Both the position numbers and the translations under genes were made by a program. From Candidatus Nealsoniibacteriota bacterium (GTDB lineage Bacteria; Patescibacteriota; Minisyncoccia; Minisyncoccales; PWPS01), in NCBI GenBank assembly GCA_003560665.1, contig PWKK01000005.1, positions 1 to 40,848 on the forward strand: a DNA stretch of 40,848 nucleotides. The letters are read 5' to 3'. Under the pieces are notes generated by a model. That model made no database searches. It was given only the letters and a program-made list of their open reading frames with translations, and had not been told where the DNA came from. This document shows, one piece after another, positions 2 to 14,873 of this stretch (its first letter is position 1; every line of letters starts with the position of its first letter).

Positions 2-199
2 GGAGATTTCGGTGGCGATTCTTATCTTGAAGATGGGTGGATAAAAAACGTCTACACTGATCGCCAGGGTAATTTTGTTCTGTATGTTATGGTTCATAAG
101 ACCGATCCTCGTTGGAATGATGACTTGGAAGAAATATGGGGATCTTGGGGAGTGTTCAAAGAGCTTGCTGTGGGCAGATCTTTTAGTGCAGGAAGATAA
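2..199 (+). CDS. 3' end of an unrecognised gene (partial)
   Basis: Only the last 65 codons are present; the gene enters from the left edge in frame 2 and stops at TAA 197-199. The visible end is rich in Trp, Asp and Gly (for example DPRWNDDLEEIWGSWG) and closes with SFSAGR. I do not recognise the family and assign no function. The frame is supported by an open reading frame right to the window edge and by a good intrinsic terminator (242-264) about 40 bases after the stop. It is followed by the first copy of the 32-bp intergenic repeat, so it looks like the last gene of the preceding cassette-like unit. Confidence 0.55.
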   Translation, partial: GDFGGDSYLEDGWIKNVYTDRQGNFVLYVMVHKTDPRWNDDLEEIWGSWGVFKELAVGRSFSAGR

Positions 200-280: not shown

Positions 281-312
281 TAGGTTCTAACGTCGTCCAA
301 TGCGCGGAGCAA
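281..312 (+). repeat. Intergenic repeat copy 1 (subfamily A)
   Basis: First of five gap-free 32-bp copies in the window. It starts TAGGTTCTAAC and ends GGAGCAA. Thirteen of 32 positions are identical in all five copies. It lies just after the terminator of the upstream gene. A diverged second piece (about 331-347, ACATAGACCATT...) resembles the middle of subfamily B, suggesting a mosaic. Bases 317-335 also resemble 1108-1126 downstream of copy 2 (shared TAAACTACG). Function unknown. Confidence 0.65.
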
Positions 313-322
313 AAGTAAACTA

Positions 323-356
323 CGGGGCAGACATAGACCATTCCCCGGATGTTTTT
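323..356 (+). terminator. Hairpin with T-run after repeat copy 1
   Basis: CGGGG (323-327) pairs with CCCCG (343-347) around a 15-base loop, followed by TTTTT at 352-356. It is weaker than 242-264 and could be either a second terminator or part of the repeat module. Confidence 0.35.
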
Positions 357-437
357 CTGTTTTTTTTCTAATAACAATTCCGGGAGGGCTTCGAATTTAC
401 TTTTTTTGAAATTATAGTATTATATAGTCAAAGGAGG

Positions 438-461
438 GCAGACAGAATATCTCTGCTTTTT
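438..461 (+). promoter_or_regulatory. Possible attenuator hairpin in the leader of the 497 ORF
   Basis: GCAGA (438-442) pairs with TCTGC (452-456), followed by TTTTT (457-461). It sits downstream of TATAGT/TATTATATA promoter-like sequence (413-426) and upstream of the ATG at 497, so a transcript begun there would meet a small terminator-like structure before the ORF. A purine run AAGGAGG at 431-437 looks like a Shine-Dalgarno motif but has no ATG, GTG or TTG at a suitable distance. The stem is only 5 bp, so this is tentative. Confidence 0.3.
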
Positions 462-496
462 GCACACTAAACAAAAAAAGAAGAGAAAGGGTGATA

Positions 497-961
497 ATGA
501 TGACATGTTGTTTTTGTCAGTCTTCAATCAAGTTTCTTGTAACTATTCATCTCAGATATGAAGAATTTAATTTTTCTTTCTTTAATGCCTTCAACTCAGA
601 TTTACTTTGTGTTTCTTGAGCTACAAAGAAACACATAGAAGACTTTGAAAAGCATGGAAGAAAAATAATTACCAAAGAAAATGATGAAATAAAGGTAAAG
701 TGGGATGTTTATCTTTCTGGCAAGGGAGAAGAATTATTTATAGTAAGCAATATATTGCTCTCTTTGGGCATTCTTTCTCGTGATCCAAAGGGGAACTGGT
801 CACTTCTAGAAGATGGAAGTCCACGGATGCCTCGCTATAAAGGTGAAATTTGTTACTTTACTAGAAGAGAAGATGCAGTAGAATATCATCGTGTCTTTTA
901 TGGTGAATTACAGTCATTTAAGCGCGAAATATGGAATATTAATCAAATTCATTCTCTTTAA
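497..961 (+). pseudogene. Zinc-finger-like ORF interrupted by in-frame TGA at codon 41
   Basis: From ATG 497 the frame runs 154 codons to TAA 959-961, with one TGA at 617-619. The N-terminal part has Cys4-x2-Cys7, then Cys38-Val-Ser followed by TGA exactly where the fourth Cys of a C-x2-C pair would fall. TGA differs by one base from TGT and TGC. Reading continues in the same frame for 113 codons with normal composition (about 30 residues on from the TGA: GKGEELFIVSNILLSLGIL). A purine-rich AGAAAGGG lies about 6-8 bases before the ATG. Most likely a recent nonsense mutation in a small Zn-binding protein; UGA readthrough or recoding is the alternative. Translation from ATG 755 alone would give only the last 68 residues. 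Family not recognised. A strong terminator follows (985-1016). Confidence 0.55.
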
Positions 962-984
962 TAAAATAATGGAAAATCACTCAT

Positions 985-1016
985 AAACCCTTCGGAAATA
1001 CGAAGGGTTTTATTTT
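985..1016 (+). terminator. Intrinsic terminator after the 497 ORF
   Basis: A perfect 10-bp stem (985-994, AAACCCTTCG, with 1001-1010) and a 6-base loop, followed by a T-rich tail to 1016. Its presence just after 961 supports the idea that 497-961 is, or recently was, a real transcription unit. Confidence 0.8.
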
Positions 1017-1024
1017 CTATCAAA

Positions 1025-1056
1025 TAGGTCCTAACGTTGTCCAACGCATCGAGCAA
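1025..1056 (+). repeat. Intergenic repeat copy 2 (subfamily A)
   Basis: It starts TAGGTCCTAAC and ends CGAGCAA; 26 of 32 positions match copy 1. It begins 9 bases after the terminator of the 497 ORF. Confidence 0.65.
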
Positions 1057-1252
1057 TAAACCAAGCAGTGTTCATTGCGGTGAAAACTCTATGTAGTCCC
1101 TTGCCCTAAACTACGTGGCCAGTCATTTATTGTGGTTGCAAAATCAAGCTAGCTCATAAACTTTACGTGAGTACTGTGGGATGTGAGGGCGAAACGCTTT
1201 TACGCCCTTTACGTGACCATTATATTAACCACCCCACCAAGGGGTGGTTTTT
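1057..1252 (+). ncRNA. Possible structured RNA ending in a strong terminator
   Basis: This non-coding stretch between repeat copy 2 and the radical SAM promoter contains two hairpins and then a strong terminator. Hairpin one is 1091-1097 with 1110-1116 (7 bp, one U:G, 12-base loop). Hairpin two is 1186-1191 with 1203-1208 (AGGGCG with CGCCCT). CAATAAA at 1054-1060 could also pair with TTTATTG near 1127. TACGTG occurs three times (1112, 1164, 1210). No ORF of note crosses it, and the terminator at 1227-1252 separates it from the downstream gene, which has its own promoter, so it is not simply that gene's leader. No promoter is clear. I do not recognise a known RNA family. Confidence 0.3.
1227..1252 (+). 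terminator. Strong intrinsic terminator
   Basis: A nine-pair stem AACCACCCC (1227-1235) with GGGGTGGTT (1241-1249), 5-base loop, and T-run to 1252. Confidence 0.85.
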
Positions 1253-1277
1253 CTTTAGATTTTTACCAATAATAATT

Positions 1278-1313
1278 CCGAGAGTTGTTCGGGGCTTTGA
1301 TTTGTGATACAAT
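1278..1313 (+). promoter_or_regulatory. Hairpin plus extended -10 promoter for the radical SAM gene
   Basis: CCGA (1278-1281) pairs with TCGG (1289-1292). After a T-rich stretch comes TGATACAAT (1305-1313), an extended -10 (TGn plus TACAAT). The ATG at 1346 lies 32 bases after the -10. The same arrangement, preceded by AATAATAATTCC-like sequence, recurs before other genes in this region. Confidence 0.55.
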
Positions 1314-1345
1314 GACTGAATATTAGAAGGCCTAGCTTAGGAAAT

Positions 1346-2449
1346 ATGAAAAAACTATTAAAAGAAAGTAAATTAGAGTTGTGGAGGAATTATTGTAAGA
1401 ATATGATTGAGAAACATCCTCTTTTGTGTCTGTCTTGGGAAACAACTATGCGGTGTAATCTTTCTTGTGAACATTGTGGTAGCCGATGTAGTCCTGACAT
1501 TAAAAAGGAAGATGAGCTTTCTACAAAAGAGATAAAGGCAGTTCTTAAAACAGTAGCAGAAGATTTTAACCCCAAGAAGATATTTTTAGCCGTAACTGGA
1601 GGAGAACCTCTTTTAAGAGAGGATCTTTTTGATGTTATGGGGGAGGCTAGTAAGATGGGCTTTCTTTGGGGATTGGTTACTAATGGCACTTTAATAACAG
1701 AAGACAATGTTTTAAAAATGAAAGAAACAGGAATGAGTACGGTGTCGGTAAGCATAGATGGAACAGAAAAATCACATAACAAGATGCGTAGGGGTGATGA
1801 TATTTTTAAGCGAGCCACTGATGGAGTAAAATTATTAGTTGATAGTAAATACTTTGAAGAAGTGGAGATTATAACCTGTGTCAGTAAAAATAATATCAGT
1901 GAGTTGGATGATATTTACCAGATGTGTCTTGATTTAGGGGTTCATAGTTGGAGGATATTTACCATTGCCCCTATTGGAAGAGCAAAAGAAAACAAAAAGC
2001 TTTCTTTGAGCCCTAAAGAGTATGTATATGTGCTAGATTATATTAAAGAGAAGAAAAAAGATCGCAAAAACAAGCTGCCGGTTAATTTTTGTGATGAGGG
2101 ATTTTTAGGGCCAGACTACGAAGGAGAGCCAAGAGACTTTCTTTTTTTCTGCTGGGCCGGAATAACTACGGGAAGTATCTTGTATAACGGGGATGTTGCC
2201 GGATGTGCTATTATTCCAAGAAAGCACACTACGCAAGGAAATATTCGCCGAGAAAGGTTTTCTGATATTTGGAACAACAAGTATGGAATGTTTCGCAACC
2301 GGGAATGGAAGAAAAAAGGGAAGTGTAAGGATTGTTATTACTGGGACTATTGTGAGGGAGAAAGTATGCACCTGTGGGATTTTGAAAAGGAAGAGTTAAA
2401 AATATGTAATTATAAGAAAATAAAGGAGGCTCAAAAAGAAAATAATTAG
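1346..2449 (+). CDS. Radical SAM/SPASM-domain protein
   Basis: Predicted 367-residue cytosolic Fe-S enzyme. The radical SAM motif C-x3-C-x2-C is at Cys37, Cys41, Cys44, with the SAM-binding GGEP at 85-88. The C-terminal part carries SPASM-type ligands: Cys269, Gly282-x4-Cys287, Cys327-x2-Cys330-x5-Cys336 and Cys354. The usual C-x3-C pair after Cys336 has Ser at 340, inside GESMHLW. SPASM enzymes often modify peptides or act with a partner protein; the substrate here is unknown. It is reminiscent of rSAM/lipoprotein-type families, but I cannot confirm that. The next gene starts 23 bases after the stop and is probably co-transcribed. TAGG just before the start pairs with CCTA (1331-1334), and no canonical Shine-Dalgarno is correctly placed. 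Confidence 0.88.
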   Translation: MKKLLKESKLELWRNYCKNMIEKHPLLCLSWETTMRCNLSCEHCGSRCSPDIKKEDELSTKEIKAVLKTVAEDFNPKKIFLAVTGGEPLLREDLFDVMGEASKMGFLWGLVTNGTLITEDNVLKMKETGMSTVSVSIDGTEKSHNKMRRGDDIFKRATDGVKLLVDSKYFEEVEIITCVSKNNISELDDIYQMCLDLGVHSWRIFTIAPIGRAKENKKLSLSPKEYVYVLDYIKEKKKDRKNKLPVNFCDEGFLGPDYEGEPRDFLFFCWAGITTGSILYNGDVAGCAIIPRKHTTQGNIRRERFSDIWNNKYGMFRNREWKKKGKCKDCYYWDYCEGESMHLWDFEKEELKICNYKKIKEAQKENN

Positions 2450-2472
2450 AATATAAAATAATTAAAAGCACA

Positions 2473-2829
2473 ATGAAAAAAGACAAAAAAAGGAAAAATA
2501 TCTTAGATAAGGCAAAAGTAGTTTTACTGGTACCGTTTCTTTCTTTTATTTTTACAAGAAATGTTCATGGAGGTGTTACTATTCCGATGATGTATGTTGC
2601 GCCACAATCACCGATTGAGATGGCCTCATCTGTAGCACAATTTTTTGCTAATATTCTATTAATACCATCTGCTTTGATAGCGGTGGTCTATATTATCTTC
2701 AAAAGAAGGAAAATTAAAAAAAAGTGGCCGAAGATTGTTTTGATAATTTTTGTCTCTTTAACCGCCTTGTTATTTGTTTCAAGTTTTGTAATGGACTTTC
2801 TTGGTAGTCATTTTTTTGGATATTACTAA
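2473..2829 (+). CDS. Small membrane protein downstream of the radical SAM gene
   Basis: 118 residues with three predicted membrane segments: about 15-32, 69-90 and 91-111. A basic KRKNILDK start and a basic loop (KRRKIKKKW, about 77-85) suggest the loops next to them are cytoplasmic. The external stretch GGVTIPMMYVAPQSP follows the first segment. I recognise no family. The 23-base gap to the radical SAM gene, with no terminator between them, implies a two-gene unit, so it may be that enzyme's partner or membrane anchor. It does not look like a classical ribosomally made peptide precursor: it is long, hydrophobic and has no Cys. Confidence 0.7.
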   Translation: MKKDKKRKNILDKAKVVLLVPFLSFIFTRNVHGGVTIPMMYVAPQSPIEMASSVAQFFANILLIPSALIAVVYIIFKRRKIKKKWPKIVLIIFVSLTALLFVSSFVMDFLGSHFFGYY

Positions 2830-2871
2830 GAAACAGTGAAAAAGACAAAAAGTGATTATCAATATATCAAA

Positions 2872-2903
2872 AAGGTTCTAACGTCGCTCAGTGCGTGGAG
2901 CAA
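2872..2903 (+). repeat. Intergenic repeat copy 3 (subfamily A)
   Basis: It starts AAGGTTCTAAC and ends GGAGCAA; 27 of 32 positions match copy 1. It lies 43 bases after the small membrane protein's stop and is followed by the hairpin-promoter module at 2942-2982. Confidence 0.65.
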
Positions 2904-2941
2904 AGAATAGGAGCAAACAAGGAAACATAAGAGAAATAATT

Positions 2942-2982
2942 CCTGAGAAATATTCCTCGGGTTTTCTTTTTTGTGGTATGCT
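2942..2982 (+). promoter_or_regulatory. Terminator hairpin fused to an extended -10 promoter
   Basis: CCTGAG (2942-2947) pairs with CTCGGG (2956-2961), followed by TTTTCTTTTTT and TGGTATGCT (2974-2982), an extended -10 with TATGCT. It would end the transcript of the unit upstream and start that of the MFS-like gene. Confidence 0.5.
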
Positions 2983-3084
2983 TTGAAAAGTAATTATTAA
3001 ATCTAATTTTTATATTTTGAAAAATTTAATAAAGCAATTAGGATTCTTCTTATTACAAATGGCCTAACTTTAGTTGCTGGAGCA

Positions 3085-3576
3085 ATGCTTGGTCCTATTT
3101 ATGCTCTTTTTGTTGAGGAAGTAGGAGGAAGTCTCTTGGATGCAAGTTATGCTTTTGGTGTTTTTGCTTTTGTAGCAGGTGTTGTTACTCTTATTTCTGG
3201 AAATTATGCGGATAGGATAAAAGAAAATGAATTAATATTGGTAGCGGGATATGCAATTATGGGAATTGGGTTTTTTGGATATATTTTTGTAAATTCTATT
3301 TTTTTGCTTTTAGTTGTGCAAGCTGTTATTGGATTAGGAGAAGCTATTTATGGACCTGCTTTTGATGTAATATATTCTAAACATCTTGATAAGGGAAAAG
3401 CAGGCAGAGAGTGGGGAGCTTGGGAAGCTATAAATTATTTTACAGCTTCCTTTGGAGCGGTGGCTGGAGGAATAATAGTAACTTTGTTTGGTTTTAATGT
3501 AATTTTTATAGTAATGGGATTACTTTGTTTTGCCAGCGCTGTCTATATTCTTTTTCTACCAAGAATAGTTTTATAA
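3085..3576 (+). CDS. Half-size MFS transporter (six membrane segments), 5' end probably frameshifted
   Basis: This encodes the N-terminal half of a major facilitator protein: about six membrane helices, with the family's motif between helices 2 and 3 (GNYADRIKENELI) and GREWGAWEAINYF before helix 5. It stops after helix 6, about half a usual MFS protein. The first ATG in frame (3085) falls inside helix 1. The frame is open upstream to 3007 and encodes convincing helix-1 sequence (AIRILLITNGLTLVAGA), but with no ATG, GTG or TTG. A TTG at 3017 in another frame would give M-K-N-L; adding one A in the A/T run at 3028-3033 joins it to the MFS frame. So either a one-base deletion (real or sequencing) or an unusual start. 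Substrate unknown. Confidence 0.6.
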   Translation: MLGPIYALFVEEVGGSLLDASYAFGVFAFVAGVVTLISGNYADRIKENELILVAGYAIMGIGFFGYIFVNSIFLLLVVQAVIGLGEAIYGPAFDVIYSKHLDKGKAGREWGAWEAINYFTASFGAVAGGIIVTLFGFNVIFIVMGLLCFASAVYILFLPRIVL

Positions 3577-3580
3577 CAGA

Positions 3581-3612
3581 TAGGTTTGAACACAGACCAT
3601 TTCCCGAAGCAG
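3581..3612 (+). repeat. Intergenic repeat copy 4 (subfamily B)
   Basis: It starts TAGGTTTGAAC and ends CGAAGCAG; 27 of 32 positions match copy 5 and 21 match copy 1. It begins 4 bases after the MFS-like stop codon. Confidence 0.6.
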
Positions 3613-3650
3613 TCTTGTACTCGGTTTGAGAAATCGAGAAGTGTAAAGAC

Positions 3651-3683
3651 CACCTTTCAATAGAGGTGATTTTTTAGTAGAAT
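3651..3683 (+). promoter_or_regulatory. Terminator hairpin plus -10 box upstream of the sugar dehydrogenase gene
   Basis: CACCTT (3651-3656) pairs with GAGGTG (3663-3668), followed by TTTTTT (3670-3675) and then TAGAAT (3678-3683) as a -10. There is no TG extension and no clear -35. The start codon at 3735 is 51 bases downstream. Confidence 0.45.
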
Positions 3684-3734
3684 AATGCAAAGATAGTTAA
3701 TCAATGAATTTTAAATAAAATATTATAAAATAAA

Positions 3735-4946
3735 ATGAAATCAAAAAGAATTGTAAAAAATATTTTTATTATATTGTTTGTTGCGCTTATTGGATTATCC
3801 TACTGGTGGCACATAACGCAAGAGGATGACCGGAGTAGAATAGGGATACCTATAAGCGAACGGCAAAACAGAGAAATTTATCCTGTGCTTGAGATAGTTG
3901 CAGAAAGATTGGGTCAGATTTGGGGAATAGACTTTATACCCGGTACATCACGGCTTGTGGCTACGGAGAACTCGGGACGCCTGTTTATTATTAATACGGA
4001 AACTTTGGGGGTTTTGGAAATAAATGGGGTTCCGGAAGTAAACAGCAGTGGCCAAGGAGGGTTGCTTGATATTGCCGTTTCTCCTGAATTTGATGAGGAC
4101 AAAAAGATATACTTTACTTATTCGGCGGGAGGCAATGAGGGTACGGCTACGCATCTAGGGCGAGCAGCTCTTGATATGGAGCTTTTGACACTGGAGGATG
4201 TGGAAGTGCTATATATTGCCACTCCTTTCCAGCGTGGAACAAGTCATTATGGCTCAAGAGTAGTTGTAGATGGAGATTATCTATTTTTAACAATTGGTGA
4301 CAGAGGTGACAAGAATTTTGATGATCACGTGTCACAAGATATAAGTAATTCCCTTGGAACTACCTTACGTCTAATGCGTGACGGGAGCATTCCCGATGAT
4401 AATCCTTTTGTGGGCGAAGAAGATGTATTAGATGAAATATATTCATATGGACATAGAAATGTGCAGGGTATGACAATAAATCCGGAAACAGGAGAGTTGT
4501 GGCAAAGTGAGCACGGAGAACGAGATGGTGATGAAATTAACATTATAAAAGCTGGTGGTAACTACGGTTGGCCAGAAACTCATACTGGGTGTGGATATGC
4601 TACTGGTAGACCAATTGGTGGTTTGCCCTGGGAGAGAGATGATATTGTAGATCCAATTCATTATTGGGAGTGCAATACAGGAGGATTCCCCCCTGCCGGA
4701 ATGGCATTTTATAATGCAGAAGGATTTCCGGAGTGGCGAGGAGATCTTTTTGTAGGTAGTCTTGCAAGTGAGTACTTGGCCCACTTTAAATTAACTAACG
4801 GCGGACTTGAAGAACAGGACCCATTATTAAAAGAGGAAGGTTGGCGAGTGCGTGATGTAACGGTTGGAGAACATGATGGAGCTATTTATGCTGCTGTTGA
4901 AGGTCGAAATACATCTTTAGTACGCATAGCTCCCAGAAACAGATAG
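3735..4946 (+). CDS. PQQ-type glucose/sorbosone dehydrogenase family protein, membrane-anchored
   Basis: 403 residues. Residues 1-27 form a basic N-terminus plus one hydrophobic helix, so the protein is probably exported and tethered. The rest fits the GSDH six-bladed propeller: HYGSR (171-175, His171 matching the catalytic base of aldose sugar dehydrogenases), TIGDRG (186-191), NSLGTTLRL (205-213), YGHRN (238-242), and SEHGERDGDEINII...NYGWP (258-280). These enzymes oxidise sugars at the cell surface with pyrroloquinoline quinone and calcium. No PQQ synthesis gene is in the window, so any cofactor would have to be scavenged. It is a single gene bounded by repeat copies 4 and 5. Confidence 0.88.
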   Translation: MKSKRIVKNIFIILFVALIGLSYWWHITQEDDRSRIGIPISERQNREIYPVLEIVAERLGQIWGIDFIPGTSRLVATENSGRLFIINTETLGVLEINGVPEVNSSGQGGLLDIAVSPEFDEDKKIYFTYSAGGNEGTATHLGRAALDMELLTLEDVEVLYIATPFQRGTSHYGSRVVVDGDYLFLTIGDRGDKNFDDHVSQDISNSLGTTLRLMRDGSIPDDNPFVGEEDVLDEIYSYGHRNVQGMTINPETGELWQSEHGERDGDEINIIKAGGNYGWPETHTGCGYATGRPIGGLPWERDDIVDPIHYWECNTGGFPPAGMAFYNAEGFPEWRGDLFVGSLASEYLAHFKLTNGGLEEQDPLLKEEGWRVRDVTVGEHDGAIYAAVEGRNTSLVRIAPRNR

Positions 4947-4976
4947 AAAATCAGGAAAAACTAGTTCCTAATTAAA

Positions 4977-5008
4977 TAGGTTTGAACATAGTCCATTTTC
5001 CGAAGTAA
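4977..5008 (+). repeat. Intergenic repeat copy 5 (subfamily B)
   Basis: It starts TAGGTTTGAAC and ends CGAAGTAA. It begins 30 bases after the sugar dehydrogenase stop and is followed by a hairpin-promoter module. Confidence 0.6.
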
Positions 5009-5099: not shown

Positions 5100-5318
5100 A
5101 TGAAGATTTTTGTAAAAGTAAAAGCAAATGCAAAAGAAGATAAAGTTGAGAAAGGTCATAATTACTTTAAGGTTTCAATTAAAGAAAGACCAATTAAAGG
5201 GAAAGCTAATAAGCAGGTAATAAAAACTTTAGCAAATTATTTTAATGTTTCTAAATCTAAAATAGAAATTGTTTCTGGCTTAAAATCAAAAGAGAAGATT
5301 TTAAAAATAAATAAATAA
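5100..5318 (+). CDS. DUF167 (YggU-like) family protein
   Basis: 72 residues, a normal length for the family. It begins MKIFVKVKANAKEDKVE and carries the family's central signature around 30-40 (IKERPIKGKANKQ) and a C-terminal GLKSKEKILKI. These are small alpha/beta proteins of unknown function, often near translation or cell-division genes in other bacteria. Here it is a single-gene unit with its own promoter (5062-5070) and no obvious Shine-Dalgarno motif. It is very Lys-rich, which fits the AT-rich base composition. Confidence 0.85.
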   Translation: MKIFVKVKANAKEDKVEKGHNYFKVSIKERPIKGKANKQVIKTLANYFNVSKSKIEIVSGLKSKEKILKINK

Positions 5319-5497
5319 TTATAAAAAAGAAACATAATAAAATACCACATAGTAGTGTTGTATTTGTTGCGTTTATGAATAAAACCCCTAGCCGAGAGGA
5401 ATTAAAATGAGACATTTAAAAAGCATTGATTTTCTACCTAAAATTCTTAATTTAGACCGACGAGGGGATGTCTTTCTATTTTTTTCTAATAATAATC

Positions 5498-5533
5498 CCG
5501 AGAGTTTCTCGGTTTTTTGTTTTATGATATAAT
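5498..5533 (+). promoter_or_regulatory. Terminator hairpin fused to an extended -10 promoter
   Basis: CCGAGA (5498-5503) pairs with TCTCGG (5507-5512) and is followed by TTTTTT (5513-5518). TGATATAAT, a consensus extended -10, is at 5525-5533. Together with upstream TTTTTTTCTAATAATAAT it matches the modules at 1278 and, more weakly, at 370-426. It decides the start of the next gene, because a TTG at 5533 overlaps the -10 box and cannot be the start. Confidence 0.7.
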
Positions 5534-5562
5534 TGGAAAACATTATTCTTAAGAAAAAATTT

Positions 5563-5961
5563 ATGTTTGTTAAATCTTTTTTGGTTGCACTTTTTATATT
5601 TTTAGCAGTAGATATGTTGTGGCTCGGACTGGTTGCCAAGAATTTCTACGACAGACACCTTGGTCACCTCCTAAGAGAGGGTGTTAACTGGCCCCCTGCA
5701 ATTATTTTTTATATTCTTTTTGTTATTGCTCTTGTCGTCTTTGTCATTGTTCCTTCTCTTGAAAAAAACTCATGGACACATGCACTTTTATATGGTGCTT
5801 TTTTTGGTTTTATTGCTTATGCAACTTATGACCTCACCAACCTTGCTACGCTCAAAAGTTGGCCCCTTGTTGTTACTATTGTTGATATTATGTGGGGAGC
5901 TTTCTTGGGGGGAAGTGTTTGTGTTTTAACTTATTTTGTAGTTACTAAATTTTTACCATGA
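5563..5961 (+). CDS. DUF2177 family membrane protein
   Basis: 132 residues from ATG 5563. The upstream in-frame TTG at 5533 lies in the -10 box and is rejected. Four membrane segments lie at about 4-23, 44-63, 74-93 and 100-127. Family-like signatures are D-M-L-W-L (residues 17-21), [16 protein letters not shown] (about 87-102) and [10 protein letters not shown]. The function of the family is unknown. Its stop TGA overlaps the start of the DUF1295 gene (ATGA at 5958-5961), so the two are translationally coupled. The TGA also shows that UGA is a normal stop in this genome. Confidence 0.85.
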
Positions 5962-6731
5962 ACTATTTTCTAATCCTCGCCGGAATCCTTTTCCTTTATA
6001 TGACGGCCTTCTTTTTTCTTTCTTTAATCAAGAAGAGAAATGATGTTGCCGATATTGCGTGGGGACTTGGATTTGTTATGCTTGCTTGGGTTTCTTTTTT
6101 TCTTTCTCCCGAAACGGAAATAAGGCACATTATTCTTTGTGCTTTGGTTAGTATTTGGGGAGTTAGGCTTGCCGAACATATTTATATAAGAAACAAGGGC
6201 AAAAAAGAAGACTACCGCTACTTAGAGTGGAGAAGAAAGTGGGGAAAATGGTTTTATTTAAGGTCTTATTTTCAAGTTTATATATTGCAGGGTTTTCTCT
6301 TATATACTATTATTTTACCGGTTCTTTTTGTCAACAAGGAAGCGGGAGCCAGTCTTGGAATATTAGATTTTTTAGGTGTTTTTGTTTGGAGTGTTGGGTT
6401 TTTCTTTGAGTCTGTAGGGGATGCTCAGCTTATCAATTTTCTAAAAAACCCAAAAAACAAAGGAAAACTTATGACACAGGGTCTTTGGAAGTATACAAGG
6501 CACCCAAATTATTTTGGAGAAGCCCTTTTGTGGTGGGGTGTTTGGATTATCGCTTTTTCTGCCACAAAATCTTTTTGGCTTCTTGTTAGCCCGTTAGTTA
6601 TTACTCTTTTAGTATTAAAAGTATCGGGAATCCCTATGCTTGAAAAGAAGATGGTAAAACACCCTGATTTCGATGATTACAAAAAAAGAACAAGTATTTT
6701 TATACCACTACCACCAAAAAATAACTGTTAA
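5958..6731 (+). CDS. DUF1295 family membrane protein (steroid-reductase/ICMT-like fold)
   Basis: 257 residues with several membrane segments. It has [12 protein letters not shown] (28-39) near the start, the conserved [14 protein letters not shown] (175-188) and a C-terminal end [17 protein letters not shown]. The RHPNYxGE motif is shared with isoprenylcysteine methyltransferases and steroid 5-alpha-reductase-like proteins, where it helps bind the cofactor, so a membrane-embedded lipid reductase or methyltransferase is plausible but unproven. It is coupled to DUF2177. In other bacteria DUF1295 genes often accompany lipid-modification genes, but none is visible here. Confidence 0.88.
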
Positions 6732-6781
6732 TTCTTTTCTTGTTCATTCGTTTTTTGTTTAAAAGAGGATGACTCGGTTTG

Positions 6782-6790
6782 TGATATAAT
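6782..6790 (+). promoter_or_regulatory. Extended -10 promoter for the 6820 gene pair
   Basis: TGATATAAT, a consensus extended -10, sits after GACTCGGTTTG, which looks like the right half of the hairpin module seen at 5498 with the left half missing. The start codon at 6820 is 29 bases downstream. Confidence 0.6.
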
Positions 6791-6819
6791 TCTTTTATAA
6801 GATAATTTTAATAAAAAAT

Positions 6820-7059
6820 ATGGAAGAGAAAGATAAAGAAGAGATAAAAGAGGAGATCGTTAAAAAGATAAAAAAAGAAATCAGAGAAGACGATGACTCT
6901 CCTGGAGGTCTTTTTATTCCCGCAGGTGTTTTAGGAGGAATGGGCTTTGGATTTCTTTTTGGAAATTTTGTAGCGGGATTATTTATTGGTCTTGGAGTGG
7001 GATTTGCTCTTTTTGCGCTGCACGAGATTTTTATAAAAAAAAATAAGAAAAATGACTAA
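6820..7059 (+). CDS. Small membrane protein with charged N-terminus
   Basis: 79 residues. Residues 1-27 are almost all Lys/Glu/Asp and probably helical. Two Gly-rich hydrophobic stretches follow (about 31-50 and 51-66) and the tail is basic. No family recognised. It overlaps the PspC-domain gene by 8 bases (7052-7059) and shares its promoter, so it may work with it at the membrane. Confidence 0.7.
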   Translation: MEEKDKEEIKEEIVKKIKKEIREDDDSPGGLFIPAGVLGGMGFGFLFGNFVAGLFIGLGVGFALFALHEIFIKKNKKND

Positions 7060-7501
7060 ATCAAACAAAAGAAAATTATACAGAAGTAAAGAAGACAAAA
7101 TACTTGCCGGAATATTCGGAGGTCTGGGAGAATACTTTGATATTGATTCAAATCTCTTGAGGCTTATCGGTCTTCTTGTTCTTATTTTCACAGCCTTTAT
7201 TCCCTTTTTGATTATTTACATTATCGCCATGTTTATAGTACCAAGCGAAAGAGAAAAAAATAAAAAGGGAAGTGAAAGCGAAGACAAGAAAAGTTCTTGT
7301 AGACCGGTGTATAAAAAATGGTGGTTTTGGTTAATTATGGCTATTCTCCTTTTTCCCATTATTTTAATATTTTTTGGATTTGTCCTTTTTACAGCAAGGA
7401 CAGATGTCATAACAGACAGTATAGATTTTAGGGAAGAAAAAATAATAGAACTACCGGAAGGTGACTTTGATCACATAAGAATATACCAGGAAGAAAAATA
7501 A
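7052..7501 (+). CDS. PspC-domain membrane protein
   Basis: 149 residues. The N-terminal PspC domain is clear: RKLYRSKEDKILAGIFGGLGEYFDID (about 7-32) followed by a hydrophobic segment (36-66). A charged linker (about 67-87) leads to a second membrane segment (about 91-113) and a short acidic C-terminal tail. PspC domains act in membrane-stress sensing in model bacteria; no PspA or PspF is in the window. Start taken at ATG 7052, overlapping the previous gene. Confidence 0.85.
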   Translation: MTKSNKRKLYRSKEDKILAGIFGGLGEYFDIDSNLLRLIGLLVLIFTAFIPFLIIYIIAMFIVPSEREKNKKGSESEDKKSSCRPVYKKWWFWLIMAILLFPIILIFFGFVLFTARTDVITDSIDFREEKIIELPEGDFDHIRIYQEEK

Positions 7502-7825: not shown

Positions 7826-8752
7826 CTAGGAAAGTGTTATTCCAATAGAGTGCATATTTCCTTGCAAAAATTCTTTTGAGGTCGTAGAATTTTTTCCTTC
7901 TATTTGTAGTTTCTTGATTAAAAGAAAATCTTTTCCTGTTTGTACCGCGATAGAGTTGTTTGTTCCCAAGTAAACCTTTCCCGGACTACCAAAAGGTCCG
8001 CTCGTTGTTTGCTCTTGGACTTCCGCTTCAAGAACTTTAAAAATTTTCTCTCCCATCTTACTGTAGGTTCCAGGCCAAGGGTTTAATGCCCTTACCTTCC
8101 TTTCAATATCTTTTGCCGAATCATTCCAGTTAATCTTTCCGTCTTCTTTTGTTAGTGTTTTTGTGTATGTTGCTTTTTCTTCATTTTGTTCGGTAAGAAT
8201 TATTTCTTTTTTTAAAATATCGGGAACTACATTTAGAAGAAGTTTTCCACCCTCTTCTGCAAGAAGTTTTTCCGCATCTTCATAGAACATCTTTGGCAAA
8301 AGGGATACTTCTTTTTGGGATATTATCGGACCTCCGTCGATTTTCTCGTTCATTTTAATTACGGAAACACCGCTCTTCTTCTTCCCGTCCATAATTGCCT
8401 TTTGAATCGGAGTTGCACCTCTATATTCCGGAAGAAGAGAAGGGTGGACGTTGATAAAGGTTGAGAGGTCAAGTGTTTTTTGCGGAATAATTATTCCGAA
8501 AGCTACGGTAACGACTAGTTCCGGGCGGTTTTCTTCAATAATTTTATGCAGTGCTTCCCGATTATCCACTTCTTTTATTTCAACTCCATTTTTTTTTGCC
8601 AACTCTCGTAGAAGAAGATTTTGCATTCTTGTTCTTTTCTTCTGGTCAGTTGCCGGAGAAGTAACTAAAAAGGAGGGTTTTATTCCGTTTTCTAAAAGTT
8701 TCTTGAAAACAACACTACCAAAGGGAGAGTTGCTGGTAAACGCGATATTCAT
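7826..8752 (-). CDS. fmt: Methionyl-tRNA formyltransferase
   Basis: 308 residues from ATG 8752; a GTG two codons upstream (8758) is possible but gives a less usual N-terminus. It formylates initiator Met-tRNA. The formyltransferase core holds NVHPSLLPEYRGATP with Asn101 and His103, and Asp139 in KIDGG, matching the catalytic triad of the family. The C-terminal OB-like domain follows from about 205 (KVRALNPWPGTY near 225). Length is typical. No Shine-Dalgarno is visible. The integrase-like ORF ends 26 bases upstream on the same strand, so they may be co-transcribed. Confidence 0.93.
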   Translation of the reverse strand: MNIAFTSNSPFGSVVFKKLLENGIKPSFLVTSPATDQKKRTRMQNLLLRELAKKNGVEIKEVDNREALHKIIEENRPELVVTVAFGIIIPQKTLDLSTFINVHPSLLPEYRGATPIQKAIMDGKKKSGVSVIKMNEKIDGGPIISQKEVSLLPKMFYEDAEKLLAEEGGKLLLNVVPDILKKEIILTEQNEEKATYTKTLTKEDGKINWNDSAKDIERKVRALNPWPGTYSKMGEKIFKVLEAEVQEQTTSGPFGSPGKVYLGTNNSIAVQTGKDFLLIKKLQIEGKNSTTSKEFLQGNMHSIGITLS

Positions 8753-8778
8753 AGACACTGTTATTTATTTATACTTTT

Positions 8779-9477
8779 TTACTCTTCTTCTATCCACTTA
8801 ATTTCCTTCTCTTTTCCGGCAAACTCAAGCCAATCTCCAGAGCTGTTTATTACAAACCATTTTTGTTTTGACTTAGACCAAACCATAGGATCTCCTCGGT
8901 AATATGGTTTCTTCTTCTTTTCTCTTGGTTTTAGCTTGTTTATTTCCGGCCATTTTTTAAATACTGTTTCAATTGCGTAATCAAGGTTCCGTGAATTTGC
9001 CCAAAGAGCAACTTTATCAATAGCTTTTTTAGCTTTTTCAACCGAGCCTGCAAGGTGAAGAAGGTCCTTTGCGGGACGGGTGTAACGCGAGTAAATAATT
9101 TTTCTTTTTCTTGCGTTTTTCTTTATTTCCTCAAGAGAGTACCCTTTTGTTTGAAAATAATGATTAACTATCTTCTGGACATCGCTCTCAGCATCACTTT
9201 TTGTTGAGTATATTAGCAGATTGTTGATTGTTTGCAAATAACTGTCAGCCGTTGTCTCTTTTAGTCCTTTTTTAAGGAGATTTTTCCGGAATTTCGCGAA
9301 ATGTTTTTTTTGAAGTTGTGCGGGGAGAATGTTTTCCATTTCTTCTTGGCGGAGCCACTCTGCGAAAACTTTTAGGTTTTGTTCTTTTTTTTCAAGTGTT
9401 GCAGGAGAAAGACCCTTTTTCTTGGCGTTTTTCAGAAAATCGGGAAAGCATTCAATCAAACTTTTTTTTCTTTGCAT
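8779..9477 (-). CDS. Integrase core-binding (SAM-like) domain fused to an unrecognised C-terminal region
   Basis: 232 residues. Residues 5-92 read like the N-terminal DNA-binding domain of tyrosine recombinases (SPATLEKKEQNLKVFAEWL, then YLQTINNLLIYSTKS), but no catalytic domain with the R-K-H-R-H-Y residues follows. Instead, 100-185 contain QKIVNHYFQTKGYSLEEIKKN, RYTRPAKDLLHLA and ANSRNLDYAIETVFKKWPEINKL. The last part is GDPMVWSKSKQKWFVINSSGDWLEFAG. I have the impression this middle domain recurs in CPR proteins, but I cannot name it. A DNA-binding role is inferred from the first domain only. It lies between fmt and a small hypothetical gene on the same strand. Confidence 0.75.
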   Translation of the reverse strand: MQRKKSLIECFPDFLKNAKKKGLSPATLEKKEQNLKVFAEWLRQEEMENILPAQLQKKHFAKFRKNLLKKGLKETTADSYLQTINNLLIYSTKSDAESDVQKIVNHYFQTKGYSLEEIKKNARKRKIIYSRYTRPAKDLLHLAGSVEKAKKAIDKVALWANSRNLDYAIETVFKKWPEINKLKPREKKKKPYYRGDPMVWSKSKQKWFVINSSGDWLEFAGKEKEIKWIEEE

Positions 9478-10473: not shown

Positions 10474-11775
10474 ATGACAAAAGAAAAAGGCCACGTTCAC
10501 TTTGTCGGAATCGGAGGAATTGGGGTTTCTTCTCTCGCCCGTTATTTTCTCGCCGAAGGACACACTGTTTCCGGATCAGATGTTGTTTCTTGCACTGATC
10601 TTGAAAAAGAGGGAGTAAAGGTTTTCAAGGGACACTTTGCAAGCAATGTTCCTTCTAATACAAGTCTTTTGGTTTACAGTGCCGCCGTTACCCAGGAGAA
10701 CGAAGAGTTAGTGAGGGCAAAAAAGGATGGTATAACGGTAAAGAGTTATCCTGAAGTATTAGGGGGAATCACAAAAAAATATTACACGATAACGGTTTCC
10801 GGAACTCACGGAAAGAGCACTACGACAGCGATGCTTGCGCTGATAATGATTAAGACGGGGCTAGATCCCACCGTAATTATTGGAACAAAGATGAAAGAGC
10901 TAGAAGGTGCCAACTTTCGAAAAGGAGCATCGAAATATCTTTTGATTGAAGCTGATGAATTTGGTGCGGCTTTTTTGAATTACCATCCGCAAATAGCGAT
11001 TATTACCAATATTGAAGAAGATCATTTAGATTTCTATCGTGATATCAAGCACATTCTTTCTACATTTGAAAAGTTTGTAAGAGAGAATCTTAAGGGAGGT
11101 CTTTTAGTGATCAACAGAGATGATAATAATGCAGGCAGTTTAAAAAGAAAGGCAAGAGGGAGAGTGGAAGAGTACACTCAAACTCAAAAAGAGGCGAAAG
11201 ATATTGTGCTTTCTGTGCCGGGAAAACACAACATATCTAATGCGTTGGCTGCTCTTACCGTTGCAAAAAATTTGGGAATTGAAAAAGAAAAAATCATTGA
11301 GGTACTTTCCACGTTCAAGGGCACTTGGCGTCGTTTGGATGAAAAAGATACGGTCTTAAAAAACGGAAGAAAAGTAAGGGTTGTAAACGACTATGCCCAT
11401 CATCCAACGGAAGTAAAAGTAACTTTGGAGGCGGTAAGAGAGAAGTATCCAAAGGAGAAAGTGTTTGCTGTCTTCCAACCTCATCAGTACGAAAGAACAT
11501 ACAGGCTTTTCGCCGATTTTGTAAAAGTACTTTCATCGGTCGATGTTGAAAAACTAATGATTACAGATATCTATACCGTTAAGGGAAGAGAGTCCAAGGA
11601 AACTATGGAGAAAGTAAGCTCTGATCTTCTTTGTAAAACCGTAAAAAAAGCAATTTGTACTGGGAGTGTACGGGATACGGGAGAGTATCTTTTGAAAAAC
11701 TTGCAAGGAAATGAAATTCTAGTTATAATGGGAGCAGGAGATGTTTATAATCTGGAGGGTCACATAAAGGTCTAA
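10474..11775 (+). CDS. murC: UDP-N-acetylmuramate--L-alanine ligase
   Basis: 433 residues, cytosolic Mur ligase. It has an N-terminal Rossmann part (HFVGIGGIGVSSLA, 8-22), the P-loop GTHGKST (110-116), EADEFGAAFL, a metal-binding/central segment TNIEEDHLDFY, and a C-terminal domain starting with TWRRLDE and NDYAHHPTEV. The HFVGIGG start and DYAHHP mark MurC rather than MurD, MurE or MurF. It adds L-Ala to UDP-MurNAc. Slightly shorter than the E. coli protein. No Shine-Dalgarno motif precedes the ATG. Confidence 0.93.
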   Translation: MTKEKGHVHFVGIGGIGVSSLARYFLAEGHTVSGSDVVSCTDLEKEGVKVFKGHFASNVPSNTSLLVYSAAVTQENEELVRAKKDGITVKSYPEVLGGITKKYYTITVSGTHGKSTTTAMLALIMIKTGLDPTVIIGTKMKELEGANFRKGASKYLLIEADEFGAAFLNYHPQIAIITNIEEDHLDFYRDIKHILSTFEKFVRENLKGGLLVINRDDNNAGSLKRKARGRVEEYTQTQKEAKDIVLSVPGKHNISNALAALTVAKNLGIEKEKIIEVLSTFKGTWRRLDEKDTVLKNGRKVRVVNDYAHHPTEVKVTLEAVREKYPKEKVFAVFQPHQYERTYRLFADFVKVLSSVDVEKLMITDIYTVKGRESKETMEKVSSDLLCKTVKKAICTGSVRDTGEYLLKNLQGNEILVIMGAGDVYNLEGHIKV

Positions 11776-11805
11776 AAAAATTAAAAAATTAATCTTATAT
11801 TCACT

Positions 11806-12090
11806 ATGCCCGATAACTGGGGAATGATAATTTTTATTTTGCTTTTAGCAGGAGGTGTGTGGTACATGATGCAAAAGCAACGCGCAAGTAAGGAAGAAGA
11901 GGAAAAAACAGAAGAGGAGAAAGTGGAAGAGGCGGAGGTTGAAGAAGATGAGTCTCAAGAAGAGCCGGAAGCTCCCGAAACAGAAGACGATACTCAAGAA
12001 GAACAAGAGGTTGATGAAGAAAAAGTAGAAGAAAAAGGGGAAGAGGAAGAAGAAGTAGAAGCAGAAGAAGAGGAAGAAAAAGATTTTTAA
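11806..12090 (+). CDS. Acidic single-pass membrane protein
   Basis: 94 residues: one N-terminal membrane helix (about 5-22), a short basic turn (KQRASK), then about 65 residues that are mostly Glu with some Asp, Val and Lys. With a short N-terminus ahead of the helix and basic residues after it, the acidic tail is probably cytosolic. The low-complexity tail gives no family clue. A strong terminator follows (12111-12136), so it ends the thpR-murC unit. Confidence 0.65.
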   Translation: MPDNWGMIIFILLLAGGVWYMMQKQRASKEEEEKTEEEKVEEAEVEEDESQEEPEAPETEDDTQEEQEVDEEKVEEKGEEEEEVEAEEEEEKDF

Positions 12091-12110
12091 GTAGATTACT
12101 AACAAAAACA

Positions 12111-12136
12111 AAAAGGGGCAGTTGTTGCCCCTTTTT
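12111..12136 (+). terminator. Strong intrinsic terminator before tig
   Basis: AAAAGGGGCA (12111-12120) pairs with TGCCCCTTTT (12126-12135) around a 5-base loop, with the T-run to 12136. It is nearly symmetrical, so it could act in both directions. Confidence 0.85.
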
Positions 12137-12163
12137 GAGTTTTAATGCAACTCGTGTTAGAAT
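12135..12163 (+). promoter_or_regulatory. Promoter of the tig operon
   Basis: TTGAGT (12135-12140), 17-base spacer, TAGAAT (12158-12163), with a TG extension at 12155-12156. The -35 overlaps the T-run of the preceding terminator. The tig ATG is 37 bases downstream. Confidence 0.65.
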
Positions 12164-12200
12164 AAAAGATGTCGTAGTGTAAATTAAATTTAATTTTCTT

Positions 12201-13496
12201 ATGGATGTAAAAATCGAAAAGAAATCAGAAACAAAAAGAGAGATTGAAGTAACCATATCTCCCGAAGAAATGGAGGATTATGTTGATAAAGCCGCCAAAA
12301 GACTTTCTGGAGAAATGAACATTAAGGGTTTTAGGCCGGGAAACGCTCCTCGTTCCGTTATCGAAAACACCAAGGGAAAAGAAGTTCTTTTTGAAGAAGC
12401 TGCAAAAGAGGCTATTCAGGAAACTTACCCAAAAGTTATTGAAGAAAATAATCTTTTTGCTTTATCTGCCCCACAGGTTAACCTCGTGAAATGCGTTCCC
12501 GGAAATGAGGTGATCTACAAAGCGTTGGTTTATATAATGCCGGAGATAAAACTTCCGGATTATAAAAAGATTTCCGGAGAAACAGCAAAAAAAGAAAAGA
12601 AGGGCGTAAAAGTAGAAGAAGGAGAGGTAGATCAATCAATAGAGAAGATTAGAGAAACAAAGGCAAAGCTTCAAAAAGTGGAGAGGGAGGCGAAAAACGG
12701 CGACGCAGTAACTTTAAATTTTAAAGGAGTTTTTGATGGAAAAGAAGACAAGAAAGTTGAAGAAAAAAACTTCCAGCTTGTTCTCGGAAGAGGGGATATG
12801 GGTGCCTTGGAGGGGTTTGAAGAAAAAATAATTGGAATGAAAGAGGGAGAGAAGAAAAGTTTTTCAATTGACATTAAGCAAGGCGGTGAGCAAAAAATTG
12901 ATTTTGAGGTAGATGTTGTTACCGTGATGGAAAGGGAGCTTCCGGAAATTAATGATGATTTTGCAAGTACTTTTCCGAATATTGAAAATCTTAAACAGCT
13001 AAAAGAAAAGATAGAGGATGGAATAAGAACGGAAAAAGAAAAAAAAGAAAAGGAGAAAGTTAGGGTGAAAGTTTTAGAAAAGATTAAAGAAAAAACGAAT
13101 TTTGAGGTACCTGAAGTGCTAACGGAAAAAGAAATCGACAATATGATGAAAACGGTGGAGAATCAACTGGCTCAAAACGGATCTTCTTTTGATAATTACC
13201 TAAAGGAAATCGGAAAAACAGAAGAGGACTTGCGCAAGGATTGGCGTAAAAAAGCGGAAGAAAATGTTTCTTACGCACTAATTTTGCATGCAATAAGCAA
13301 GGAAGAGGATGTTGATGTTACGCCGGAAGAGATCGAGAAAGAAGTTGACCGACACTTTAGCGTAATGGGAAAGAGTAAGGATGCTGAGAAAAAAGAAGAT
13401 TTGGAAAGAATGAGAAATTATGTTCATGATGTGATAAAAAACCAAAAGGTATTTCGTGTTCTCTCTATTGACGATTCATCCCCAAATGAAGTATAA
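12201..13496 (+). CDS. tig: Trigger factor (ribosome-associated chaperone and prolyl isomerase)
   Basis: 431 residues, the usual length. The N-terminal ribosome-binding signature GFRPGNAP is at 43-50. A FKBP-type isomerase domain spans about 150-245 (GDAVTLNFKGVFDGK, LGRGDMGALEGFEEKIIGMKEGEKK). A helical C-terminal chaperone region follows. It binds nascent chains at the ribosome exit tunnel. It has its own promoter and is followed within 40 bases by the response regulator gene, so it probably leads the rest of this plus-strand block. No Shine-Dalgarno motif. Confidence 0.95.
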   Translation: MDVKIEKKSETKREIEVTISPEEMEDYVDKAAKRLSGEMNIKGFRPGNAPRSVIENTKGKEVLFEEAAKEAIQETYPKVIEENNLFALSAPQVNLVKCVPGNEVIYKALVYIMPEIKLPDYKKISGETAKKEKKGVKVEEGEVDQSIEKIRETKAKLQKVEREAKNGDAVTLNFKGVFDGKEDKKVEEKNFQLVLGRGDMGALEGFEEKIIGMKEGEKKSFSIDIKQGGEQKIDFEVDVVTVMERELPEINDDFASTFPNIENLKQLKEKIEDGIRTEKEKKEKEKVRVKVLEKIKEKTNFEVPEVLTEKEIDNMMKTVENQLAQNGSSFDNYLKEIGKTEEDLRKDWRKKAEENVSYALILHAISKEEDVDVTPEEIEKEVDRHFSVMGKSKDAEKKEDLERMRNYVHDVIKNQKVFRVLSIDDSSPNEV

Positions 13497-13533
13497 AGAG
13501 AGTAATTAATAAGGCTAATTTATTATTAAAAAT

Positions 13534-13905
13534 ATGGGAAAGAAAATTCTCATTATAGAAGACGAAAAGATGCTCGCTGAAATGTACTATGACAGATTTG
13601 CCCATGAAGGATATGATGTCTATTCCGCTTTTGATGCTGAAGAAGGGATGGAGGTGGCAAAAAAGGTAAAACCTGACTTAATTCTTCTTGACATTCTTCT
13701 TCCACGAGAGAATGGAACGGATTTTCTGGAAAGACTACGAAAAGAAAAAGATATCGGTGAAACAAAGGTGATTGCCTACTCTAATTACGATGAAGAAAAT
13801 TCAAAAGAGAAAGCGAAAAGTCTCGGTGCAAAAGATTATCTGATTAAAACAAACCACACTCCGAGGGAGGTTTTAGCAATAGTCAGAAAACATATTGAAG
13901 AATAG
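13534..13905 (+). CDS. Single-domain response regulator (orphan)
   Basis: 123 residues, one receiver domain and no output domain. Acidic residues Glu9/Asp10, the phosphoacceptor Asp53 in ILLDILLP, Ser83 and Lys105 are all in place, so it should be phosphorylatable. No histidine kinase is in the window. It sits between tig and the D,D-carboxypeptidase gene, 2 bases from the latter, inside the peptidoglycan block. This suggests a link to envelope growth, but that is inference. A single receiver domain usually works by protein-protein contact. Confidence 0.9.
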   Translation: MGKKILIIEDEKMLAEMYYDRFAHEGYDVYSAFDAEEGMEVAKKVKPDLILLDILLPRENGTDFLERLRKEKDIGETKVIAYSNYDEENSKEKAKSLGAKDYLIKTNHTPREVLAIVRKHIEE

Positions 13906-13907
13906 GG

Positions 13908-14861
13908 ATGGAACCAAAAAATAAAAGATTATTACTACTTTTAATTGTCCCTCTTGTCTTTTGGGGTGTTTTTTTGTTTTTTTCAGAGAAAAGTGATTCC
14001 GATGTAGTAATAGAGGGTGAAGAGACTGAAAGGCTGCCTTATCCTGAACATATTGGGGGACCGGACGACCATCCAAATCTTGATGTTGCAGCCGCTTTCT
14101 CTCTTTATTACAACGACGAGGAAGAGAAAGTTCTTTATGAAGAAAATGCCGATGAAGTATTTCCTATTGCCAGCATCAGCAAGTTGATGACTGCACTTGT
14201 TGTTTTTGAGAATTACAACCTAGAAAAACAACTTGGGGTAACCGAAGAAGAGGTTTTTTCGCGGACAGAGTTTCGCGATTTTCGAGCATGGCGAGAAACA
14301 GAAATAGAAGAGGTTGTTCACTCGATGCTTGTCGAATCAAATAATAGTGCCGCGTTTGCACTTGCTCTAATCAGCGATCGTTTCTTAGATGGTGAAGGTG
14401 ATTCTATTGAGGTTTTTATCGAAGCGATGAATGACAAAGCAAAAGAGATCGGGTTGAAAAAAACTCATTTCATAAATTCAAGTGGTCTTGATGGTAGAGA
14501 AGAGTACAATCGGTCAACGGCAAAAGAGATAGGTTTGTTTTCCAGATATATTCTTAAAAACAAAAAAGAAATTTTTGAAATTTCAAAGATGCCCTCGTAC
14601 CGCCTCTACTCTCCGGATGGTTTGGCGCACTACGAAGTCTTAAATACAAATATTTTTCTTCACTCAAATGATTTCCCGTGGGAAGAAAAGATAATAGGAG
14701 GGAAGACCGGATGGACTCGTGCAGCATTTGGCTGTCTCTTACTTGTCTTGGAACCTCCCGAAGGTGAAGGTTATATTGTAAATGTGGTTCTTGGAGCAGA
14801 AGACAGGTTCAAGGAAATGGAAAAACTGGTTGAATATGTTTACAGTGTTTATAATTTTTAA
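13908..14861 (+). CDS. D-alanyl-D-alanine carboxypeptidase (S11 family)
   Basis: 317 residues with an N-terminal membrane anchor or signal (about 7-25). The penicillin-binding motifs are complete: Ser89-Ile-Ser-Lys92, Ser144-Asn-Asn146 and Lys266-Thr-Gly268 (GGKTGWT). It trims the terminal D-Ala from peptidoglycan stem peptides outside the membrane. The length fits a catalytic domain without the long C-terminal domain of E. coli PBP5. The ATG follows the response regulator stop after 2 bases, so the two are likely co-translated. It is named by family only, because the dacA/dacB-type assignment is not decidable here. Confidence 0.92.
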   Translation: MEPKNKRLLLLLIVPLVFWGVFLFFSEKSDSDVVIEGEETERLPYPEHIGGPDDHPNLDVAAAFSLYYNDEEEKVLYEENADEVFPIASISKLMTALVVFENYNLEKQLGVTEEEVFSRTEFRDFRAWRETEIEEVVHSMLVESNNSAAFALALISDRFLDGEGDSIEVFIEAMNDKAKEIGLKKTHFINSSGLDGREEYNRSTAKEIGLFSRYILKNKKEIFEISKMPSYRLYSPDGLAHYEVLNTNIFLHSNDFPWEEKIIGGKTGWTRAAFGCLLLVLEPPEGEGYIVNVVLGAEDRFKEMEKLVEYVYSVYNF

Positions 14862-14873
14862 TGCCTCCCAAAT

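Follow-up and report, generated by a model that had tools for sequence, protein, structure and literature searches.

Several described systems collect accessory genes at defined sites. Tycheposons, which are tRNA-linked transposons, integrate at tRNAs, carry accessory cargo and leave tRNA fragments; they are larger elements and encode tyrosine recombinases. The attC sites of integrons contain an R'' box (RYYYAAC) and an R' box (GTTRRRY) and fold as an imperfect palindrome. The pdif modules are bounded by 28-bp near-palindromes in inverted pairs. In tRNA-integrating islands, tyrosine integrases target the tRNA 3' end, a displaced copy of that end remains as a scar, and tandem accretion is known (Islander, PMC4383910). 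Site-specific insertion at tRNAs as such is already known. Here we analyze a 40,848-nucleotide stretch of DNA (the window) from a Candidatus Nealsoniibacteriota bacterium (GenBank contig PWKK01000005.1), in which five direct repeats each follow a gene or gene pair. The organism belongs to the Patescibacteria, whose genomes are very small and whose gain of accessory genes is poorly understood. A preliminary description had taken the repeats for joints at which gene units were added, and this notion is supported, with cassettes recurring in new contexts and the galU-fmt locus being empty in relatives. Judging from the sequence, the repeats are probably attachment-site scars of a gene-cassette array, whose enzyme-free units would have been inserted serially, with a recombinase acting in trans, at tRNA 3' ends or at existing sites.

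We compared the locus to the described systems. It shares with integrons and their integrase-less arrays (CALIN) the one gene per unit, the site at the gene 3' end, the single orientation, the likeness of sites within a genome and the diversity of cargo. The comparison with integron cassettes drawn in the preliminary description holds for the layout only; neither the attC structure nor an integron integrase was found. The site measures 29-33 bp, is non-palindromic and lacks an R'/R'' pair; the units carry their own promoter and terminator, and at 14 loci a tRNA gene stands in the place of attI. In common with tRNA-integrating islands, insertion occurs directly 3' of a same-strand tRNA, here at a minority of loci, but our units are one-gene segments of 0.5-2 kb without an integrase, their scar includes an extra conserved arm, and they form long one-strand arrays. 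Tycheposons differ in that our units contain no tyrosine recombinase gene. Similar to pdif modules, the units are small, lack a recombinase of their own and are possibly moved by the host Xer, but here the repeats are direct, lie on one strand and have another sequence. Searches of openly accessible papers, which excluded subscription articles and preprints, turned up no description of such arrays.

All genomes compared are metagenome-assembled genomes (MAGs). The window represents the entire contig C2 of one of them (G000, 679 kb), and the contig start falls inside the array; six G000 contigs were masked, at least four of which resemble high-GC contaminants. An alignment of 92 sites yields the consensus AAAC-AGGTTCTAAC-RTC-GTCC-N7-GGAGC. 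The core of this pattern, AGGTTCKAACNNNGWCC, is present without mismatch in 67 of the 247 genomes of the order (reversed-pattern control, 7), and the pattern is found again in other genera of the family and of the order. A position weight matrix (PWM) built from the 92 sites gave 126 matches in 456 kb of fetched sequence and none in the reversed sequence, a density that differs from a genome-wide rate because loci were fetched for holding the core pattern. Two types of site can be distinguished in the window, A (copies 1-3) and B (copies 4 and 5); the named matches of a broad scan for the B-type pattern were all MAGs of Candidatus Nealsonbacteria. Sites resemble one another within a genome, as illustrated by AAGCCCCGCAGC, which is found in most G162 sites. 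Among 2.9 million viral contigs a single site was detected; array DNA had no match in phage records, and plasmid records, queried only with the recombinase fragment described below, gave no match either. The viral example (L304, an IMG/VR contig, 14708-14728, minus strand) is a full site at the very end of the contig, with a border between AT-rich DNA and GC-rich phage-like DNA directly after GGAGCC, and the junction may represent either an insertion or a chimera.

The sites are organized in one-strand arrays at 38 of the 39 loci that have at least two of them, with a median spacing of 883 nt. For 77 of 117 sites, a stop codon on the same strand precedes the site by no more than 100 nt, compared with 81 of 1080 random positions (7.5%), ruling out that the repeats are placed at random with respect to gene ends. 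Downstream of a site there is usually a terminator hairpin, in many cases AATCGCCAAGAAGGCGGTTTTTT, and then a promoter-like GGTAGAAT and the next gene. Cargo is highly varied: 106 cassette proteins match 93 Pfam families, nearly all of them once, and include NYN nucleases, HAD and NUDIX hydrolases, methionine sulfoxide reductases and a subtilase, with a few matches to candidate defence families. The window array contributes a radical SAM pair, half of an MFS transporter and a sugar dehydrogenase.

Related cassettes lie in arrays of different genera and in different neighbourhoods. A NYN cassette gene is located beside different genes in the arrays of G001, G016 and G029, and a DUF5667 cassette gene is common to G029 and G070, again with different neighbours. 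Some of the homology edges coincide with the site. In a deoxyribosyltransferase-like (NDT) cassette shared by G001 and G042, the identical stretch begins with the terminator, includes the gene and reaches GCAGGTTCGAAC, beyond which the sequences diverge, and in a unit common to G102 and G111 identity ends directly after GTCC. A 2.3-kb block is 99.5% identical between G070 and G071, which belong to different species of one genus, and ends 1 bp from a G070 site. Of 35 homology blocks analyzed, 11 have their left edge 0-80 nt after a site, where 3.2 are expected and where none of 2000 shifts reaches that number.

In eight relatives, galU is directly followed by fmt on the opposite strand and no array is present, which rules out a conserved gene order at this position. 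The galU gene of G000 is located close to the end of contig C1; in the window, the inserted DNA extends to fmt at 7829, ~7.8 kb from the contig start and behind the array. The inserted DNA starts behind the stop codon of galU and shortly thereafter contains TTTTAGTTCGAGTCTTGTTCCCGGAGCCA, a piece resembling a tRNA 3' end. It continues with a minus-strand half-gene coding for the C-terminal part of a large serine recombinase (G000 C1 266516-267097, corresponding to L088 6516-7097), which runs off the contig and whose frame terminates within the tRNA-3'-like sequence (..WLREQDSN). We assign the half-gene to this enzyme class because 60% identical relatives of 500-560 amino acids have PF07508 just upstream. 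Isolated short remnants of its C terminus, 83-93% identical, are found in G014, G066, G139 and G144.

We next turn to the association with tRNA genes, which, like the likeness of the site to tRNA 3' ends, is absent from the preliminary description. For this, 49 loci with enough upstream sequence could be scored. A same-strand tRNA is located within 2.5 kb before the first site at 14 of these loci, compared with one opposite-strand tRNA (p=0.0005) and two downstream. tRNA-Asn or tRNA-Gln account for 7 of the 14 anchor tRNAs, compared with a share of 3/41 (p=2e-5). In G081 and G083, two species of one genus, homology extends up to the last bases of tRNA-Tyr and no further. The G000 contigs C4, C24 and C29 end near the 3' ends of tRNA-Gln(ctg), tRNA-Asn and tRNA-Gln(ttg), respectively; these are the only three Asn/Gln tRNAs found in the genome, and no other of its tRNAs has a 3' end that faces a contig end at 120 nt or less (chance 1 in 10,660), which hints that further arrays are missing from the G000 assembly. 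The 3' part of the site itself resembles a tRNA acceptor strand plus discriminator. TCCAAGCCCCGCAGC forms the end of the G163 tRNA-Gln as well as of most G162 sites, and in eight genomes the sites fit the end of their own tRNA-Asn/Gln better than swapped ones (p=0.002). A distal copy of the tRNA 3' end is matched for Asn and Gln anchors but not for His, Tyr, Gly and Asp anchors. Arrays also follow tRNA-His at the same place in a conserved tRNA cluster, between Arg-His and Arg-Ala-Ser, in two families (G102C13 11332-15617 and G216C24 2429-4787); the His and Arg tRNAs are adjacent in G000.

In the mechanism that we propose, a unit would comprise a terminator, a promoter, one or two genes and the site. 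The conserved 5' arm, AAACAGGTTCTAAC-RTC-GTCC, would belong to the unit, which would bring the arm AAACAGGTTCTAACRTCG with it, and the 3' part of the site (N7-GGAGC) would be a copy of the tRNA 3' end, made up of acceptor strand, discriminator base and a C. This tRNA-like remainder may be the common stretch in which exchange happens, and it is exactly there that sites are alike. The units hold other genes and no integrase of their own. We infer circular intermediates, a succession of insertions, strand exchange inside the site and an enzyme supplied in trans; candidates for this enzyme are the Xer-like recombinase of the host, a different tyrosine recombinase or a large serine one. Units would be inserted one after the other and in one orientation, building up tandem arrays, either at tRNA 3' ends (those of Asn and Gln being preferred) or at pre-existing sites. 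Such serial insertion would explain the tandem growth and single orientation of the arrays, the homogeneity of the sites in each genome and the presence of a tRNA at the array head. The wider proposal, that a gene-capture system separate from integrons operates across an order of Patescibacteria, with single-gene cassettes, tRNA-3'-end-like sites and accumulation at tRNA-Asn/Gln by an in-trans recombinase, is in our view evenly balanced.

Several observations weigh against serial insertion at tRNA ends. An upstream tRNA is found at only 14 of the 49 loci; contigs in MAGs break at arrays, and most loci have no tRNA in reach partly because contigs end there. The head of the window array has no intact tRNA, only the tRNA-3'-like remnant after galU. 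Sites beside His, Tyr, Gly and Asp tRNAs show no match to those tRNA ends, and we rejected anchor-specific tRNA matching for every anchor type, as it fails at these four. The match of sites to their own tRNA may be partly due to relatedness. Right edges of the 35 homology blocks fall at sites 5 times where 2.7 are expected, which is not significant, and in one duplicated cassette identity continues through the terminator. Most arrays have no recombinase within or next to them, and no such enzyme shows a consistent association. Extra PF00589 genes occur in 22 of 67 site-bearing and 26 of 180 other genomes (p=0.0015), an enrichment that is not significant for multi-site genomes, and contigs with a second tyrosine recombinase contain no sites in the stretches fetched. 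A dedicated tyrosine integrase was rejected as the enzyme on the basis of this mild enrichment, its lack of significance in multi-site genomes and the site-free stretches of those contigs. Large serine recombinases (27 of 67 site-bearing genomes, 113 of all 247; p=0.32) show no genome-level association. A window gene on the minus strand (8782-9477) was discarded as a candidate enzyme, having only an integrase SAM-like N-terminal domain and being core in the family; it is conserved together with fmt, LigT and a Mur ligase throughout the family.

Since sites lie between stop codon and terminator and are hence transcribed, they could instead act as a 3'-untranslated RNA element in the processing, stability or terminator-linked regulation of accessory genes, the arrays being ordinary islands. 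We consider this very unlikely. The check for a conserved RNA structure that the preliminary description had suggested reveals no common fold in 125 sites (RNAalifold energy 0, mean single-sequence z +0.23), and Rfam holds no match to the site. Moreover, the sites occur in only 67 of 247 genomes, clustered, on one strand and beside shuffled accessory genes, and some homology edges are located right at the site. The missing fold, together with the missing imperfect palindrome, likewise argues against a true integron, in the form of an integrase-less array of attC cassettes moved by IntI. Its single-gene units, one orientation and homogeneous sites per genome would fit, and TTCTAAC resembles the attC R'' box, but the logo of 92 sites shows no 3' GTTRRRY box and the cassettes have their own promoters. 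IntI was not found, with G000 and the single-contig G111 each encoding one PF00589 protein, in a search limited by incomplete MAGs, and we give an integron hardly any credence.

It is possible, if doubtful, that the host's single Xer recombinase acts on the sites as dif-like modules, comparable to pdif modules. The only PF00589 protein detected in G000 is Xer-like (window 21409-22365), a sole tyrosine recombinase is likewise detected in G001, G042, G070, G103 and G111, and the units would need no enzyme of their own. The site is, however, not dif-like, as it lacks an 11-6-11 near-palindrome (the dif site of these genomes was left unmapped), and most Xer-bearing genomes have no site. The half-gene at the island head, positioned on the minus strand right after galU with its frame ending in tRNA-3'-like sequence, would fit an origin of the arrays from elements that encode a large serine recombinase and target tRNA-like sites, with the cassettes as deletion derivatives or co-mobilised passengers. 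A recombinase is also found upstream, divergent and 10-20 kb from the site in G034, G048 and G082. Yet the genome-level association is missing, and no large serine recombinase adjoins the other arrays in the fetched DNA. Serine integrases normally do not rebuild attB, making tandem growth hard to explain, and we regard this origin as unlikely.

Should units indeed be inserted serially at tRNA ends by an enzyme in trans, cassette-style stockpiling of genes would have arisen outside integrons, with a tRNA end taking the role of attI, and an enzyme that proves dedicated to it would earn the system a class of its own. The site family provides a sequence handle for listing the mobile gene pool across hundreds of genomes. 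Arrays appear to break assemblies at tRNA-Asn/Gln, and this gene pool is therefore probably under-counted in MAGs.

The features of the window array and its surroundings are as follows.

2-199, plus strand: 3' end of a cassette gene truncated at the contig start; open frame to the TAA at 197-199, no Pfam match
282-310, plus strand: site 1, A type, AGGTTCTAACGTCGTCCAATGCGCGGAGC; PWM score 44.0
about 319-351, plus strand: hairpin-like piece CTACGGGGCAGACATAGACCATTCCCCGGATG after site 1
497-961, plus strand: decayed cassette gene with an in-frame TGA at 617-619; downstream part 47% identical to a relative in the G001 array
1026-1054, plus strand: site 2, A type; PWM score 34.1, terminator-like hairpin immediately 5'
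1346-2449, plus strand: radical SAM/SPASM protein, cassette gene; PF04055 (3.2e-20), PF13186 (9.5e-11)
2473-2829, plus strand: small membrane protein, pair partner of the radical SAM gene, without a confident Pfam match
2873-2901, plus strand: site 3, A type; PWM score 33.0, likeness to a G014 site extends into the terminator
3031-3576, plus strand: half of an MFS transporter with decayed 5' end; PF07690 (4.8e-22), profile positions 1-173 of 347
3582-3610, plus strand: site 4, B type, AGGTTTGAACACAGACCATTTCCCGAAGC; PWM score 23.1, close relatives in G001, G008, G042 and G070
3735-4946, plus strand: glucose/sorbosone dehydrogenase, cassette gene; PF07995 (6.6e-109)
4978-5006, plus strand: site 5, B type; PWM score 27.8
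5100-5318, plus strand: accessory DUF167 gene; PF02594 (4.5e-21)
5452-5530, plus strand: putative degenerate sixth junction, TTAGACCGACGAGGGGATGT with CTTTCTATTTTTTTCTAATAATAATCCCGAGAG terminator and promoter; below the PWM threshold
5533-7501, plus strand: DUF2177, DUF1295 and PspC genes, accessory DNA inserted ahead of fmt
7826-8758, minus strand: fmt-like formyltransferase, first core gene and right border of the insertion; PF00551/PF02911
21409-22365, plus strand: Xer-like tyrosine recombinase outside the array, candidate in-trans enzyme; PF00589 (1.3e-39)

The five repeat copies given in the preliminary description are located exactly at 281, 1025, 2872, 3581 and 4977 on the plus strand (5 matches, 0 expected), and its count of 13 invariant positions among 32 was reproduced. 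Identity within subfamily B is 27/32 as claimed, but within subfamily A it is 23-27/32 rather than 26-27/32; between the two it is 17-22/32. The copies indeed sit after stop codons, at distances of about 82, 64, 43, 5 and 31 nt for copies 1-5, and a degenerate pattern finds only these five in the 40.8-kb window. In the G000 genome, the strict pattern is confined to the window array, and the PWM adds two sites on contig C21. The cargo genes, described as unrelated, are diverse, but the first carries the in-frame TGA and the MFS gene is only a 5'-decayed half. The window array is thus not entirely fresh, as two of its cargo genes have decayed. The putative sixth junction has the same tail as that found after site 1 and contains the third copy of repeat D2. 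The DUF2177, DUF1295 and PspC genes behind it are missing between galU and fmt in relatives, and DUF1295 is present in only 5 of 16 family genomes.

Two further segments of the array have counterparts elsewhere. Ahead of the decayed cassette gene, at about 392-480, a promoter and leader hairpin (GGAGGGCAGA..TCTGCTTTTTTGC) is near-identical to those preceding cassette genes in other genomes, three in all (the window, L073 3' of tRNA-Gln, and L072 18529-18620), and this common element may exert attenuator-like control. A long insert with inverted ends, CACGTAAA/TTTACGTG, is located between site and terminator in two genomes, at 1055-1250 of the window and at 15290-15430 of L072, and resembles a small mobile insert within the junction.

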